Positions 25,382 through 49,643 of a stretch of 64,000 nucleotides of DNA are shown in pieces. The notes under the pieces were generated by a model. That model searched no databases. It was not told where the DNA came from and was given only the letters and a program-made list of their open reading frames with translations. How positions within the stretch are numbered: position 1 is the first letter of the stretch; every line of letters begins with the position of its first letter. The DNA is taken from assembly GCF_000239815.1 (NCBI RefSeq), contig NZ_CAFK01000310.1:1-64000 (forward strand), in the 5' to 3' direction. This stretch comes from Bradyrhizobium sp. STM 3843. Lineage in GTDB: Bacteria; Pseudomonadota; Alphaproteobacteria; Rhizobiales; Xanthobacteraceae. A program made the position numbers and the translations under genes.

Positions 25382-26518
25382 TCACGGCGCGAGCTTGTGA
25401 TTTTGCGCTTCTGTCGGAACGCTGGCAAGCACCGCTCCGTCGGGATGGCGTCGGTGACATTCGACCGCGCTCGCGGCGGTATCCCGCCCCCGGTTGATCA
25501 ACATCGATCCGATCCAGACCGCGCCGAGCAAACCGATCACGACAATCCCGAGATCGGCGAGATGGGCGTTGAGATCGCCAACCACATCCCACACGCTGCC
25601 CACGAGGCCGAACCGCGTACCCAACAGCTGAGCCGCTTCGATGCCACCAATGACAAAGGCAACCGTGACGGATGCCGCTGTTATCGCCAGATTGTAGCGA
25701 AGCTTGCGATGCGGATCCGTCAGCGCCCATCGATAGGCAGCGGTCATCAGCACGCTGTCAGCGGCATCGACCGTTGCCATGGCCGCAGCGAACAACGCCG
25801 GGAACACCAGAACATGCAAGAGCGATGTTCCACGTGCGGCCTCCGTCGCCGATAGGCTCAACAGGCCGATCTCGCTCGCGGTATCGAATCCAAGGCCGAA
25901 CACGAGACCGAGCGGATACATGTGCCACGGGCGGCTCACCATACGGAGCAGCGGCCTTAACACGCGGACCAGGAAGCCACGTTGCGGATCGGCCGAACTG
26001 ATCGCGACAACGTTGCGCGCGCTCTGGTCAGACTGCCGCAGCGAGCGAAACTTACGCCAGAGGTCGAACAAAACGACCAGATTGGCCGAAGCGATCAGCA
26101 GCAGGAACGCGGCGGAAACCGACGTGCCAACGGCGCTGCCGAACAACCTGATCAGGCTGTCGCCATCAGCCAAGCCTATCGTCGCCATGCTTGCCAGCAG
26201 GATGGTGGCCGCGACCACGACGCTGGAATGGCCGAGCGCGAAATAGAGGCCACTGGCACGCGGCATCTCGCCCGCATGCATTAGTTTCCTGACAACGTTA
26301 TCGATCGCGGCGATGTGGTCGGCATCGACGGCATGGCGCAGGCCGAGCAGCCAGGCCAGCAGCGCGGTGCCGACGACAGCAGGCCGCTCCGAATACAGCG
26401 CGAACGCCCAGGCCCAGGCAAGGCCGTTGGCGATCAGGAGCCCGCCGGCCAGGGCAGCCGGACCGGTGGTCCTGTCGCGCAGCCTACGTGCCGGATGATC
26501 ATTGGCAAGAATCGTCAT
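25382..26518 (-). CDS. hupN: Nickel/cobalt permease HupN (NiCoT family)
   Basis: A 378-residue membrane permease with about eight hydrophobic helices. The NiCoT signature H-x4-D-H appears as HAVDADH in helix II, and GHSSVV follows in the next helix. It imports nickel for hydrogenase and probably for the ureases. The ATG at 26518 is used; the longer frame to 26623 contains no transporter sequence. It is the first gene of a hupN-hupUV series. Confidence 0.92.
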   Translation of the reverse strand: MTILANDHPARRLRDRTTGPAALAGGLLIANGLAWAWAFALYSERPAVVGTALLAWLLGLRHAVDADHIAAIDNVVRKLMHAGEMPRASGLYFALGHSSVVVAATILLASMATIGLADGDSLIRLFGSAVGTSVSAAFLLLIASANLVVLFDLWRKFRSLRQSDQSARNVVAISSADPQRGFLVRVLRPLLRMVSRPWHMYPLGLVFGLGFDTASEIGLLSLSATEAARGTSLLHVLVFPALFAAAMATVDAADSVLMTAAYRWALTDPHRKLRYNLAITAASVTVAFVIGGIEAAQLLGTRFGLVGSVWDVVGDLNAHLADLGIVVIGLLGAVWIGSMLINRGRDTAASAVECHRRHPDGAVLASVPTEAQNHKLAP

Positions 26519-26529
26519 ACTCTGCTGAG

Positions 26530-26545
26530 AGCAAGTCCCGCGCCA
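26530..26545 (-). promoter_or_regulatory. Possible sigma-54 promoter before hupN
   Basis: On the minus strand TGGCGCGGGACTTGCT matches the -24/-12 consensus well. The implied transcription start, near 26519, sits one base before the hupN ATG, which would leave a leaderless mRNA. Either that is real, or the match is chance. Confidence 0.4.
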
Positions 26546-26732
26546 TTCGGTCCGTGCCAAAATTCCGTGGATCTTCAACGGCGGCGGGCGGCTGACTGAG
26601 GCCATGTTGGCACGTCGTGGCAAGCCGCTTACCAGCCGCCGACGGCCGCCCTGGCGAGATGGACCTGCACATCACTCAGACCATCACGGACAAGACCCCT
26701 ACGGACAGGCCATTGTGCCCAACGAATTATCG

Positions 26733-26999
26733 CTAGCCTTGTCGCGGTCCCGCAAACGTGTGTCGCGGGTTCCTGCCGCAGCGGGCGTTAGTCCCAGATG
26801 CGGCTGCCAGACACTGGCTGCGAGTCGCGAATTGACAGTTCCCGGGATAGCCCCATCGCCTTCCTTGCAGACAGTATCGATCCTGTATGCCGGAGGTCGC
26901 CCGCGTAACACGGTCACGCGCCTGACCTGGTGAACTCGAGGTCGCAATCGCAACAAGGCCAATCGCAAACAATGAAGCGAATAGAATGTGGCCGCGCAT
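26733..26999 (-). CDS. DUF3551 family small secreted protein
   Basis: An 88-residue protein with an N-terminal signal peptide (about 25 residues, ending near GQA). The mature part holds the Cys pattern of DUF3551, with YCLQG, GNCQF, QCLAA and RCGRNP, as seen in many copies in Bradyrhizobium genomes. Function is unknown. It is transcribed toward hupN but separated from it by about 210 bp, so probably independent. Confidence 0.75.
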   Translation of the reverse strand: MRGHILFASLFAIGLVAIATSSSPGQARDRVTRATSGIQDRYCLQGRRWGYPGNCQFATRSQCLAAASGTNARCGRNPRHTFAGPRQG

Positions 27000-27399
27000 G
27001 GCACAACTCCCGGTCTCGGACTACAAGGCGAGCCGTCGGCCAATCGTGCGGCATGATCGAGCATTTCAGCTACTACTCGATTGATCTGCCGTGACGATCG
27101 TGCACGTCGGCGCGATCGGCCTTCGACACGGAAATCCACCTAACACCGATGCTGGAAGTTGGCGATGCGGGTTTTACCCGGGCCCGGATCGGGACAAGTC
27201 CACCTTCGGGTCATGACCTTTACTTAGTGTTCTGGGAGTGTGCAGCGGATTCGACGGCGCTCCCGCTTTCAGTCCGGTTGGATCGTGCTTTTGCGCAGCA
27301 TTTCCGTTGACTCGGCCCAAGCTTGCGTCCTGGTGCCTGACGTGGAGTTCCCGGGGGTCACGCCCCAGCGAAGCGCGCCCACTCATAGTTTCAGCTCTC
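27000..27399. other. Intergenic stretch without a supported gene
   Basis: Short frames exist here, including one of 90 codons on the minus strand, but none has a ribosome site or a recognisable family. The DNA leads into the candidate small RNA that starts near 27400. Confidence 0.5.
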
Positions 27400-27509
27400 G
27401 ACCATGAGGTTAATACCGGATGTTCGGGACCGTTCCGACGGGGCATGGTCTACCAATGAGAGGAGCCTGTCCTCCCAAGACTGGCCCACCCTCAGGTGGG
27501 CATTTTTTT
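27400..27509 (+). ncRNA. Candidate small RNA with three hairpins
   Basis: About 110 bases that fold into successive stems on the plus strand. The first is GACCATG (27400-27406) with CATGGTC (27444-27450). The second is GAGGA (27460-27464) with TCCTC (27470-27474), followed by a free CC. The third is the intrinsic terminator at 27484-27509. No open reading frame uses the terminator, since the next genes run the other way. The TCCTCCC in the second stem is complementary to Shine-Dalgarno sequences, as in the alpha-r14 family of rhizobial sRNAs; assignment to that family is not established. The 5' end and promoter are not determined. Confidence 0.5.
27484..27509 (+). terminator. Rho-independent terminator (plus strand)
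   Basis: A perfect 7-bp stem GCCCACC/GGTGGGC with the tetraloop CTCA, then A and seven T residues. It ends 8 bp before the stop of the convergent response-regulator gene. With no plus-strand gene upstream, it most likely ends the small RNA. Confidence 0.8.
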
Positions 27510-27516
27510 GATAGCT

Positions 27517-28152
27517 TCAGGGCTCGATCAATTTCTTGCGGATCGCATAGCGTACCAGCTCGGCCGTCGTCGACGTGCGAAGCTTGTGCATCGCCGATGC
27601 TCGGTGGGTTTCGACGGTCTTTATGCTGAGTTTCAAGATCGAGCCGATGGATTTGTTGGTGTATCCCTCCGCGATCAGCTGAACCACACTCTGCTCTCGC
27701 GGAGTGAGAAGCGTTGATGACCGGTTCTGCTGGTGGAGCTGGTAGTCGCTAAGCAATTTCTCCAGCAACACTCCGGTGAAGTAAGGCCTTCCCTCCAACA
27801 GAGCCTCGATCGCCGAAATGAGATGCTTGCTGGCGTCCGATTTCAACAGGAAACCGCGAGCTCCCGTCAGAAGAGCCTCGGTCAGAATCTCCTCGTCTTC
27901 GTGCATCGTGAGAAGCAGCACCTGCGAAGGGAGATGGAGCGCCTTGATGCGCCGGCTCACTTCCAACCCGTTCATCAAAGGCATCGAATAGTCGACGATG
28001 ACAATGTCCGGCCTCGTCTTCGCAGACAATGCCACTGCCTGCTCGCCGTCAATCGCGTCTCCACTTACGGTCCAATCGGGTCGTGCCTGAATGATCGCAC
28101 GAAGTCCCGAGCGTACCACCTCATGATCATCCGCGATCAATATCCGTTTCAC
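27517..28152 (-). CDS. NarL/FixJ-type response regulator (first of a pair)
   Basis: About 211 residues from a GTG at 28152, placed by alignment with the neighbouring paralogue. The receiver domain begins RILIADDHE and has its phospho-Asp in IVDYSMP. The C-terminal LuxR helix-turn-helix spans the LTPREQ to KTVETHR region. The target genes are unknown. It is a close relative of the regulator at 28337; both probably answer to the kinase at 29038, which lies just upstream. The ATG at 28206 would add 18 residues not conserved in the paralogue. Confidence 0.87.
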   Translation of the reverse strand: MKRILIADDHEVVRSGLRAIIQARPDWTVSGDAIDGEQAVALSAKTRPDIVIVDYSMPLMNGLEVSRRIKALHLPSQVLLLTMHEDEEILTEALLTGARGFLLKSDASKHLISAIEALLEGRPYFTGVLLEKLLSDYQLHQQNRSSTLLTPREQSVVQLIAEGYTNKSIGSILKLSIKTVETHRASAMHKLRTSTTAELVRYAIRKKLIEP

Positions 28153-28336
28153 AGCGTCGCCCCGTATACCGGCGCCGCAATCATTGCCGGTTGTCTGCAG
28201 ATTCAAGCGGGCAGGTCGACAGCGTACTGATCGGTCTTCCAGCGACCATTACGCAAAACCCGAGGAATCTCGCAGGAAATGTATTGAGATCGCGCACGCC
28301 GTCCCGCCTAAACACCGGCGCGACACGAGCGCCCCG

Positions 28337-28966
28337 TTACGGTTCCACGAGGTTGGCGCGTACTGCGTATCGAACCAGGCCTGCCGTCGAGTTGACTTCC
28401 AGCTTGCGCATTGCGGCCGCGCGATGCGCTTCGGTGGTCTTGACGCTGAGGTCCAGCATGGCGCTGATACGCTTGTTGGTATAGCCCTCCGCGACCAGCT
28501 TCACAACCAGCCGCTCTCGCGGCGAGAGGTGATGATACCTGTGCTTGTCTTCACCCAAACTGCCGTTCAGCTCGCTCGCGCAACTGTCCGTGCAGAATGC
28601 CTTGTGCACCAGAAGCGACTCGACCGCAGCCAGCAAGAGCTTGTTGGCATCTGATTTCAACAGGAACGCGCGCGCCCCCGCCTGGAACGCCTGCTGCGCA
28701 AGTAGACCTGAATTGTGCACGGTGAAGATGAGAATCTCCGTGTGCATGCGATATTCCTTGATGCGCCGCGCAACCTCCACCCCCGTCATGCGCGGCATGG
28801 AGAAATCGAGTATCGCGACATGGGGCTGGCTTGCGACGGCCGCGGCAAGAGCCTTGCTGCCGTCGTTCGCCTCCGCAACGACTTCCCAGCCGGGGTGCTG
28901 TTCCAGGACAGCCCGCAGTCCCGAACGGACCGCTTCGTGATCATCCGCAATGAGAAAACGCTTCAT
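28337..28966 (-). CDS. NarL/FixJ-type response regulator (second of a pair)
   Basis: A 209-residue regulator: receiver domain (FLIADDHE, phospho-Asp in ILDFSMP) and LuxR-type helix-turn-helix (LSPRER to KTTEAHR). It is the paralogue of the gene at 27517, sharing residues along the whole length, but the second helix and linker differ, so the two may bind different DNA. It lies 71 bp after the kinase gene. Confidence 0.9.
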   Translation of the reverse strand: MKRFLIADDHEAVRSGLRAVLEQHPGWEVVAEANDGSKALAAAVASQPHVAILDFSMPRMTGVEVARRIKEYRMHTEILIFTVHNSGLLAQQAFQAGARAFLLKSDANKLLLAAVESLLVHKAFCTDSCASELNGSLGEDKHRYHHLSPRERLVVKLVAEGYTNKRISAMLDLSVKTTEAHRAAAMRKLEVNSTAGLVRYAVRANLVEP

Positions 28967-29037
28967 GGTGAGGCAACTCCAAACTCGTACCGCTTCGCGC
29001 GATCCAATCGGTGCCCAAACGCGATGTCCCCGTCTGA

Positions 29038-30300
29038 CTATCGATCCACCATTTCGTTCATGGCCTGCTTGCGCGAAAGCTGATGATTGCGGCGGCCTTT
29101 GACCGAGCGCGCCACATGTCCCCGGGGAAATGCCGCGCGCAGGATAGTACCGGACTGCCCCCCTTTCCGAGAATAGATCTCGAGCATACCTCCCATCTGC
29201 TGCAGCCTCGCCTGCATTGCGGGAATTCCGACGCCGAGTGATTTTGTTTTGGAGTGATACCCGGCCCTGGCAAGAGCCGGGATGCCGCGCCCATTGTCGG
29301 TTACGCTCAGCTCGAAATGCTTACCGACCACCTCGATGGCAACGTCGACCGCAGTTGCTTTCGCGTGACGGAAGACGTTCGTCAGGGCTTCTTGAATGAC
29401 TCGCAGCAGCGACCGCTGCGTTTCATAAGGCAGCCGATCGACGCTGGGCACAATCCGAGCGCTGACATCCAACGACGTGCGTGCGGCAAAGCCCTCGGCA
29501 TAGTGTTCAACCGTCGTCCTCAACCCGGAGGCCGCGAGGTTTTGCGGGTGCAACAGATAGGTAAATGTCCGGATTTCCCTCAAGGCGCGATCGATCGAGG
29601 CGTTGATATCGTCGTAAATCTGCTCGGCCTCGGCCGATTGGCTCAAACAGCTTCGTATCCGCATCAGACCGAGGCTCGCAGCAACCAAATGCTGACAGGT
29701 CGAGTCGTGCAGATCGGACGCGATCCGCTGCTGGATGTCCTCCTGAATGGAAGCTAACCGGGCGGTTATGCCTGTATCGTCCCGATCCATCTCCAGGGCG
29801 CCTTGCGCCGGCTCTTCACTCGCGACGCGATGGCTCCCGATCAATCGGGTGATGTTGCCCGTCAGCGGATCGCACATCGGCGCTACGACTGTCTCGATGT
29901 TTCGCGGAACTCCACCGAGCGCTAGCCGATGACGCAGACGTGTTTCGTTGCCTTGGGCGAGACAGGCATCCAGGACCTGATAGACGGACCTGGCATCTTC
30001 TGTCCCCATACAGTCGCTGACGGCCATCTCCCGGATCTCTTCTGAAGCGATCCCAATAAGCGCTTCGAACGCCGGGTTTATAGCTTCGTAGACGAAACGG
30101 CCCCCATATGATGGGCGCACGACGAAGAGAAGCTCTCGAGCGAACTTCCAGTACAGCCGTTCCTTGGTGTCCTGGGCGTCAATCTGGGCCTCGATGCGCG
30201 CCAAGTTCAGGACACTGGATCCACCAGCCCCCCTGGCAGAAGCGTTGTCAGACCTCACGGTACACACTCCGCTTATGACCTTCCAACTTGGAAAGTCCAT
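29038..30300 (-). CDS. PAS-domain sensor histidine kinase (NarX/UhpB type)
   Basis: A 420-residue soluble kinase. A PAS-like domain at about residues 45-165 is followed by a HisKA_3 dimerisation segment with the phospho-His in ASDLHDS and an ATPase domain with EALTNVFRHAKAT and DNGRGIP. No membrane helix is seen, so it senses a cytosolic cue. A GTG at 30258 with a good GGAG five bases upstream is a strong alternative start and would drop 14 residues. HisKA_3 kinases pair with NarL-type regulators, and two lie directly downstream. Confidence 0.9.
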   Translation of the reverse strand: MDFPSWKVISGVCTVRSDNASARGAGGSSVLNLARIEAQIDAQDTKERLYWKFARELLFVVRPSYGGRFVYEAINPAFEALIGIASEEIREMAVSDCMGTEDARSVYQVLDACLAQGNETRLRHRLALGGVPRNIETVVAPMCDPLTGNITRLIGSHRVASEEPAQGALEMDRDDTGITARLASIQEDIQQRIASDLHDSTCQHLVAASLGLMRIRSCLSQSAEAEQIYDDINASIDRALREIRTFTYLLHPQNLAASGLRTTVEHYAEGFAARTSLDVSARIVPSVDRLPYETQRSLLRVIQEALTNVFRHAKATAVDVAIEVVGKHFELSVTDNGRGIPALARAGYHSKTKSLGVGIPAMQARLQQMGGMLEIYSRKGGQSGTILRAAFPRGHVARSVKGRRNHQLSRKQAMNEMVDR

Positions 30301-47921: not shown

Positions 47922-49643
47922 TCAGCTGAAGAAGTATTTTTGATTGAGCGAGACTGTCGTCAGCGGCGGAACCGTCGCGTGCTTGCCGTCAACGGTCACC
48001 GCAAAGGTTTCCGGACTGACCTCGATCTTCGGTGTCCCCGTATTTCGAACCATGTCGTGCTTTCCGATCTTGCGCACATTTCTCACCGGCATCACCTGCC
48101 GGCGGAGCCCCAACCGCTCCTTGACACCTGCAGCATGGGCGGAGCCGGAGACGAAGGTGATGCAATTGGCGGCCAGCGCATCGCCGTAAGCACCGAACAT
48201 CGGCCGGTAATAGGTGGGTTGCGGCGTCGGCAGCGATGCGTTCGGATCGCCCATCACCGCCCAGCTTATGAAGCCGTTCTTGATCACGATCTTTGGCTTT
48301 GCGCCGAAGAACGCCGGCTCCCACAGCACGAGATCGGCGATCTTGCCGACCTCGACCGAACCCAGCACGTCGGCAATTCCATGCGCGATCGCCGGATTGA
48401 TCGTGATCTTTGCGACATAGCGCAGCACGCGGAAGTTATCGTTTCCCGGTACGTCCTCCGGCAGCTTGCCGTGTCCAGTCTTCATTGCATCAGCGGTCTG
48501 GATGCAACGTAGCCAGCATTCCCCGATCCGCCCCATGGCCTGCGAGTCGCTCGAGAACATCGAGATGACACCGAGATCCTGCAGGACATTTTCGGCAGCA
48601 ATGGTCTCGGCGCGGATACGGCTCTCGGTGAAGGCCACATCCGAGGGGATGTCAGGACTGAGATGATGACAGACCATAATCATGTCGTAGAGCTCCGCCT
48701 GCGAATTGATGCCGTAGGGGAGCGTAGGATTGGTCGAGGACGGCAAGACGTTAGGAAGGCCGGCGATCTTGATGATATCCGGCGCGTGGCCGCCGCCGGA
48801 ACCTTCGGTATGGAACGAATGGACCGTCCGTCCTTCAAACGCCGCGATCGAATCGTCGATGAAGCCGGACTCGTTCAGCGTATCCGTATGGATGCAGACC
48901 TGGGTGTCCGTCTCGTCGGCAACGGTCAGCGCGGAGCGAAGCACCGCCGGGGTGGTGCCCCAGTCTTCGTGACATTTGACACCGACCGCGCCCGCCTCAA
49001 TCTGTTCAACCAGCGCGGCTTTGCCGTGTCCGTGCCCCTTGCCGAGAATGCCGACGTTGAGCGGCCAGTTTTCGAACGCGCGCAACATCATGCTGATGTT
49101 GCCGGGACCCGAAGTGACGGTGGTTGCGTTGGAGCCGTCCGAAGGACCGGTACCGCCACCGATCAACGTGGTCGTGCCGTTGGAGAGCGCGGCCTCGGCC
49201 TGCTGCGGGGAAATGAAATGAATGTGCGTGTCGATCCCGGCGGCCGTCAGGATGAGATGTGAGCCCGAGATGGCGTCGGTAGCCAATCCCAACTCCAGGC
49301 CAGGCGTAACGCGATCCATCGTCTGAGGGTTGCCAGACTTGCCGATCGCACAGATGCGGCCATCCTTGATACCCACGTCGGCTTTCACGACGCCCAGCAC
49401 CGCGTCGATGACGGTCACGTTGGTGATCACCAGGTCGGGGGCGCCCCCTGCCCGCGTCACCTGATTGTCCATCCCCATGCCCTCGCGCATGCTCTTGCCG
49501 CCGCCGAAGACGATTTCATCGCCGTAACCGCCGCGCAGATCGCGCTCGATTTCGACGAACAGGCCCGTGTCGCCCAAGCGGATGCGGTCGCCTGTCGTCG
49601 GACCGAAAAGGCCGACATATTCTTGCCGGGAGATGGTAGCCAT
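47922..49643 (-). CDS. ureC: Urease alpha subunit UreC (operon 1)
   Basis: A 573-residue catalytic subunit. The dinuclear nickel site is complete: H140 and H142 (DTHIHF), carbamylated K223 (GVKCHEDWG), H252 (CIHTDTLNE), H278 (HTEGSGGGH), D366 (SSDSQAMGR). The flap carries C325 and H326. It hydrolyses urea to ammonia and carbamate. It shares only part of its sequence with the second UreC at 55444, so the two are not a recent duplication. Confidence 0.98.

Follow-up and report, generated by a model that had tools for sequence, protein, structure and literature searches.

Genomic context of the candidate RNA

The candidate RNA lies on the plus strand of contig NZ_CAFK01000310.1 of Bradyrhizobium sp. 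STM 3843 (assembly GCF_000239815.1, labelled G000; 8.43 Mb in 349 contigs), and all strong relatives are Bradyrhizobium. The analysis covered positions 1 to 64,000 of the forward strand, a stretch of 64,000 nt that is referred to here as the window. Features at the locus are collected in Table 1. A sensor kinase gene (HK) and two genes for NarL/FixJ-type response regulators form an HK-RR2-RR1 unit, of which RR1 is the final gene, and this unit converges on the candidate. RR1 and the neighbouring DUF3551 gene are spaced by approximately 500 bp, and the candidate sits near the RR1 stop codon. An earlier reading of this DNA, made from the sequence alone (the sequence-only reading), had described the RNA as head-on to a response-regulator gene with 8 bp between their ends. 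The tail-to-tail arrangement is correct, but the gap from the T run to the stop codon is 7 bp.

Table 1. Coordinates of genes and RNA features at the locus (positions in the window)
Feature	Positions	Strand	Basis
NicO nickel transporter gene; NiFe hydrogenase subunit genes next on the same strand	25385-26623	-	
DUF3551 gene	26733-26999	-	
Weak hairpin on the 5' side of the interval first described, a doubtful part	27399-27426	+	MFE fold
Upstream hairpin, GGGACCGTTCCGACGGGGCATGGTC	27427-27451	+	MFE fold
MmgR/suhB-like 3' end (seed-like motif plus terminator)	27451-27509	+	RF00519 alignment, model R1
Hairpin burying TCCTC; core GAGGA-GCCUG-UCCUC at 27460-27474	27457-27477	+	MFE fold
TCCTCCC	27470-27476	+	
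TCCTCCC-AA-GACT, anti-Shine-Dalgarno motif common to MmgR (there CCTCCC-TA-GACTT)	27470-27482	+	Pattern searches against scrambled control, alignment A1
Intrinsic terminator, GCCCACC-CTCA-GGTGGGC-A-TTTTTTT	27484-27509	+	
RR1, NarL/FixJ-type response regulator (stop codon 27517-27519)	27517-28206	-	Pfam Response_reg and GerE
RR2, NarL/FixJ-type response regulator	28340-28966	-	
Sensor kinase (HK)	29041-30300	-	

The plus strand had also been described as free of genes at this point. A Pfam search of the small open reading frames on both strands of 27174-27629 returned no family matches, and the third-position GC of the small frames in the region is not coding-like. Across 26733-30300, the kinase and the two tandem NarL-type regulators adjoin the NicO transporter and NiFe hydrogenase genes. 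HK-RR2-RR1 occurs widely in Bradyrhizobium, and NicO is close to this unit in three further genomes (L042, L044 and L046). Beyond RR1, the neighbourhood varies among relatives, with NicO or DUF3551 genes placed in other orientations. A search of RR1 against viral contigs gave no matches.

Secondary structure and termination

The minimum free energy fold of 27390-27515 contains four hairpins, namely the three in Table 1 and the terminator. The three consecutive stems reported earlier for 27400-27509 are real, but the fold adds a fourth, at 27399-27426. The claim that a strong intrinsic terminator ends the candidate was borne out: the stem (27484-27501) has 7 bp, of which six are GC pairs, with the loop CTCA and a run of seven T at 27503-27509. 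Because the minus strand lacks a U tract after the stem, this terminator serves plus-strand transcription only, and a bidirectional role that would also serve RR1 was rejected. No sigma-70-like promoter was found in a scan of the 3 kb from 26000 to 29000.

Fold stability exceeds that of shuffled sequences only slightly (z -1.63; 10 of 200 shuffles were equally or more stable), and we gave it little weight. The heptamer TCCTCCC is indeed present in the middle stem, as the sequence-only reading had it. However, when the upstream sequence was shuffled 2000 times, a stem of at least 5 bp against TCCTCCC formed in 336 cases (17%), so the stem is at chance level, is not evidence by itself and was rejected as a designed feature. 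Structure alone does not carry the case for a small RNA (sRNA), the terminator being its only strong element. It is the joint occurrence of TCCTCCC-NN-GACT and a terminator 1 nt further on that exceeds chance.

Comparison with known sRNA families

The closest resemblance at the locus is to suhB (RF00519, alpha-r8), the family of MmgR. MmgR is an Hfq-dependent transcript of approximately 77 nt with a proposed anti-Shine-Dalgarno (anti-SD) motif (PMC7143759). The suhB model aligns end to end over 27451-27516 with 19.0 bits, against a curated gathering threshold of 41 bits (E = 0.675 genome-wide, and 0.1 when a 301-base stretch was compared with all of Rfam). It is the best sub-threshold match in an Rfam search in which no family reached threshold at the locus. 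As in MmgR, CCTCCC-N2-GACT stands immediately 5' of the terminator stem; in the candidate it occupies 27471-27482 and GACT ends 1 nt before the stem. Unlike MmgR, the candidate has no GGGC-type first hairpin, its locus is strain-specific, and its seed lies in a stem arm whereas that of MmgR is mostly unpaired.

Other families share single traits with the candidate. The alpha-r14/cuckoo RNAs (NfeR1, SmelA075) likewise combine a CU-rich anti-SD sequence with a terminator. However, each of their hairpins carries the anti-SD motif (CCUCCUCCC in SmelA075) as unpaired loop sequence (PMC7143759, PMC3927594), while the candidate has a single UCCUCCC, which forms part of the 3' strand of a stem. AbcR1 and AbcR2 (alpha-r15) are said to show partial homology to suhB (PMC7143759), and Brucella AbcR regulates its targets through CUCCCA, the M1 motif (PMC5461406). 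This motif is present in the candidate at 27472-27477, but the M2 motif GUUCCC is absent from 27400-27509, there is no Rfam match to AbcR, and the Sinorhizobium meliloti abcR pair is found at the lsrB locus, the candidate elsewhere. Hence, assignment to suhB/MmgR (score, exposed seed), alpha-r14 (anti-SD loops) or AbcR (second motif) is not supported, and the alpha-r14/suhB membership raised by the sequence-only reading was not upheld. BjsR1-10 and 3'-seR-ntrC of Bradyrhizobium japonicum resemble the candidate in being genus-specific, a likeness of description (PMC5082802). Some of the orphan or 3'-UTR-associated sRNAs of that species have no predicted promoter, and some overlap 3' UTRs (PMC5082802).

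Elsewhere in the window, the Helicobacter 5'ureB sRNA family matched 49190-49490 with 42.4 bits (cut-off 40), antisense to the start of a ureC-like gene (47922-49643, minus strand). This match most likely reflects conserved coding sequence rather than an RNA gene.

A motif-plus-terminator module in Bradyrhizobium

To place the candidate among related 3' ends, we defined in the present analysis a Bradyrhizobium class of 3' modules with CCUCCC-N2-GACU followed by an intrinsic terminator, a layout that the candidate shows. The corresponding pattern, CCTCCCNNGACTN{15,45}TTTTT, has only four matches in the 8.43-Mb genome: two true MmgR genes (on C304 and C131, with suhB scores of 76.7 and 72.5 bits), the candidate, and a site on C261 that lacks a hairpin and whose complement resembles a ribosome-binding site. 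Of 257 Bradyrhizobium genomes, 254 contain the pattern. A scrambled motif of the same composition and spacing gave seven matches in 98 genomes (about 0.07 per genome before a T run), none with a terminator-like stem before the T run, compared with stems of 9-12 bp in 29 of 30 automatically chosen matches to the true pattern. The combination is thus enriched in the genus.

A sequence model (R1) was built from 22 other modules, with the candidate left out of training. R1 uses sequence only because RNAalifold gave no consensus pairs on the module alignment, the stems differing in length. It matches the candidate at 27464-27508 with 19.1 bits (E = 0.011 genome-wide and 8e-5 in the window), as its sole match in the window, and ranks it fourth in the genome, after both MmgR genes and a site on C32 that is complementary to a ribosome-binding site.

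Among the genus matches listed, a substantial minority are not MmgR, and several of these have quite different upstream sequence. When non-canonical loci were tested against Rfam, one of 18 was suhB and 17 had no family at threshold. Many RNA 3' ends in Bradyrhizobium other than MmgR bear CCTCCC-N2-GACT with a terminator (L100-L119); some of these, judging from sequence, appear to follow directly on a reading frame, as at L102 and L103, where the motif comes approximately 10 nt past a TGA stop. The STM 3843 genome also holds a third, divergent MmgR-like gene (C131:28899-28982; 30 bits) with CCTTCC in place of CCTCCC and a strong terminator; one of the two true MmgR genes is located approximately 3.8 kb away.

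The candidate departs from the class in its seed. With 20 nt of upstream sequence included, the mean unpaired probability of TCCTCCC is 0.19, compared with 0.41-0.99 in 50 class members, and none of the 50 relatives measured has an equally occluded seed. This value rises to 0.85 only when the hairpin is opened or its left arm lies before the RNA start. The earlier suggestion that TCCTCCC could pair with ribosome binding sites is therefore not supported for the folded RNA, in which the motif is buried. The terminator stem is also shorter, with 7 bp compared with 8-12 bp in the class.

Conservation of the locus

The 136-bp feature had no convincing relative in 195 genomes of the genus, nor did the 517-bp intergenic region in 391 genomes of the family. 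Searches with model R1 and blastn found the candidate at none of 58 related loci with RR1 orthologues, and 29 of these loci, inspected directly, lack both the motif and any comparable terminator after RR1. As there are no DNA relatives and none of the 58 loci keeps the candidate, neither covariation nor selection is evident; the upstream hairpin at 27427-27451, in particular, has no relatives in these genus and family genomes to supply covariation. Retention of the locus in more than one species, a criterion of the class, was not found for the candidate. The sequence-only reading had named loss of the stems in relatives that keep the neighbouring regulators as an outcome that would refute it, and this is the outcome observed.

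Short BLAST matches in three Bradyrhizobium genomes (L005-L007) were rejected for their low bit scores and unrelated flanks. A match to AGGAGCGTCCTCCCAAGACTT at L160 (91% over 22 nt) lies inside a histidine-kinase frame, has no terminator and was rejected as chance.

Potential origins and function of the candidate

We consider that plus-strand positions from about 27451 to 27509 represent the 3' end of a lineage-specific sRNA, or of a longer transcript, bearing an MmgR-like anti-SD 3' module like that of MmgR and other Bradyrhizobium RNAs, and we give this reading a probability of roughly 0.5. This interval is the part of the putative RNA that is most likely to be functional. The predicted transcript may start earlier, near 27400. 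Hfq, or the opening of the hairpin at 27457-27477, could expose its CU-rich motif, which would then pair with an AGUC-N2-GGGAGG type ribosome-binding region in target mRNAs, blocking their translation. Hfq is probably involved; both Hfq and anti-SD action are proposed by analogy with MmgR (PMC7143759) and Brucella AbcR (PMC5461406), and for the candidate to act as an anti-SD sRNA it would have to be both transcribed and opened. A full-length complement (AGTC-TT-GGGAGGA) of the exact motif is absent from all start regions of the STM 3843 genome, and hence no target is proposed. Of the original proposal of an sRNA with an anti-SD element, an RNA 3' end with such an element stays plausible given the layout of motif and terminator common to suhB/MmgR and the genus-wide class, while family membership, an accessible seed and conservation are not supported.

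The main rival to this reading is that the locus holds a plain terminator that stops plus-strand transcription, either read-through or antisense, heading towards the response-regulator operon, with a coincidental CU-rich motif and upstream hairpins and no discrete regulatory RNA. This is quite conceivable given the missing promoter and conservation, the chance-level upstream hairpins and anti-SD stem, and the occluded seed. However, matches to CCTCCC-NN-GACT with the spacing seen in MmgR are rare, the scrambled counterpart occurring about 0.07 times per genome and without a hairpin, and the independently trained model R1 finds the candidate with E = 0.011.

A decayed or recently copied MmgR-like gene, which inherited the 3' module but lost its 5' domain and became non-functional with its seed buried, is unlikely. 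Such a history would fit the sub-threshold suhB score (19 bits) over the full model length, the occluded seed, the terminator stem shorter than in the class and the restriction of the candidate to its own genome among those searched, but both the 12-nt motif and the terminator are intact, although decay would not specially spare them, and the genus has many non-canonical carriers of the module whose 5' parts are unrelated. It is very improbable that minus-strand GGGAGGA serves as ribosome-binding site for a small gene after RR1 in the operon, the plus-strand motif being merely its complement as at the C261 and C32 matches, since the nearest minus-strand ATG (27446) is 23 nt off, the 90-aa frame has neither a Pfam match nor coding-like GC3, and the adjoining terminator indicates plus-strand transcription.

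Returning to the reading of the locus as an RNA 3' end, a broader and more speculative proposal, which we advance with considerable doubt, is that CCUCCC-N2-GACU with a terminator is a portable 3' module in Bradyrhizobium, carried by many unrelated sRNAs and mRNA 3' UTRs. MmgR would then be one carrier in a shared-seed regulon silencing AGUC-N2-GGGAGG mRNAs, and the candidate a strain-specific carrier with a hairpin-switched seed. If real, the candidate would be an anti-SD sRNA limited to this strain, next to both a two-component system and a hydrogenase locus, and it would point to a larger Bradyrhizobium set of RNA 3' ends with one seed-plus-terminator module.

A candidate target of MmgR

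MmgR controls polyhydroxybutyrate (PHB) accumulation in S. meliloti, and a 2020 review reported no known direct mRNA target (PMC7143759). For this reason, the ribosome-binding site of an acetyl-CoA acetyltransferase gene in STM 3843 (C32:34677-34730; L015/L203) offers a testable candidate target. The site contains CCAAGTCTAGGGAGGAAAC, a 19-nt perfect complement of the conserved motif of the MmgR from the same genome. This complementarity makes the acetyl-CoA acetyltransferase mRNA a candidate direct target of MmgR in one lineage. In 28 other relatives that were read, the site keeps little beyond GGGAG. In the closest matching genome for this gene (G065), the ribosome-binding site reads CCAAGTCTAGGGAGGGAAC, and 15 of the 19 bases (CCAAGTCTAGGGAGG) recur.
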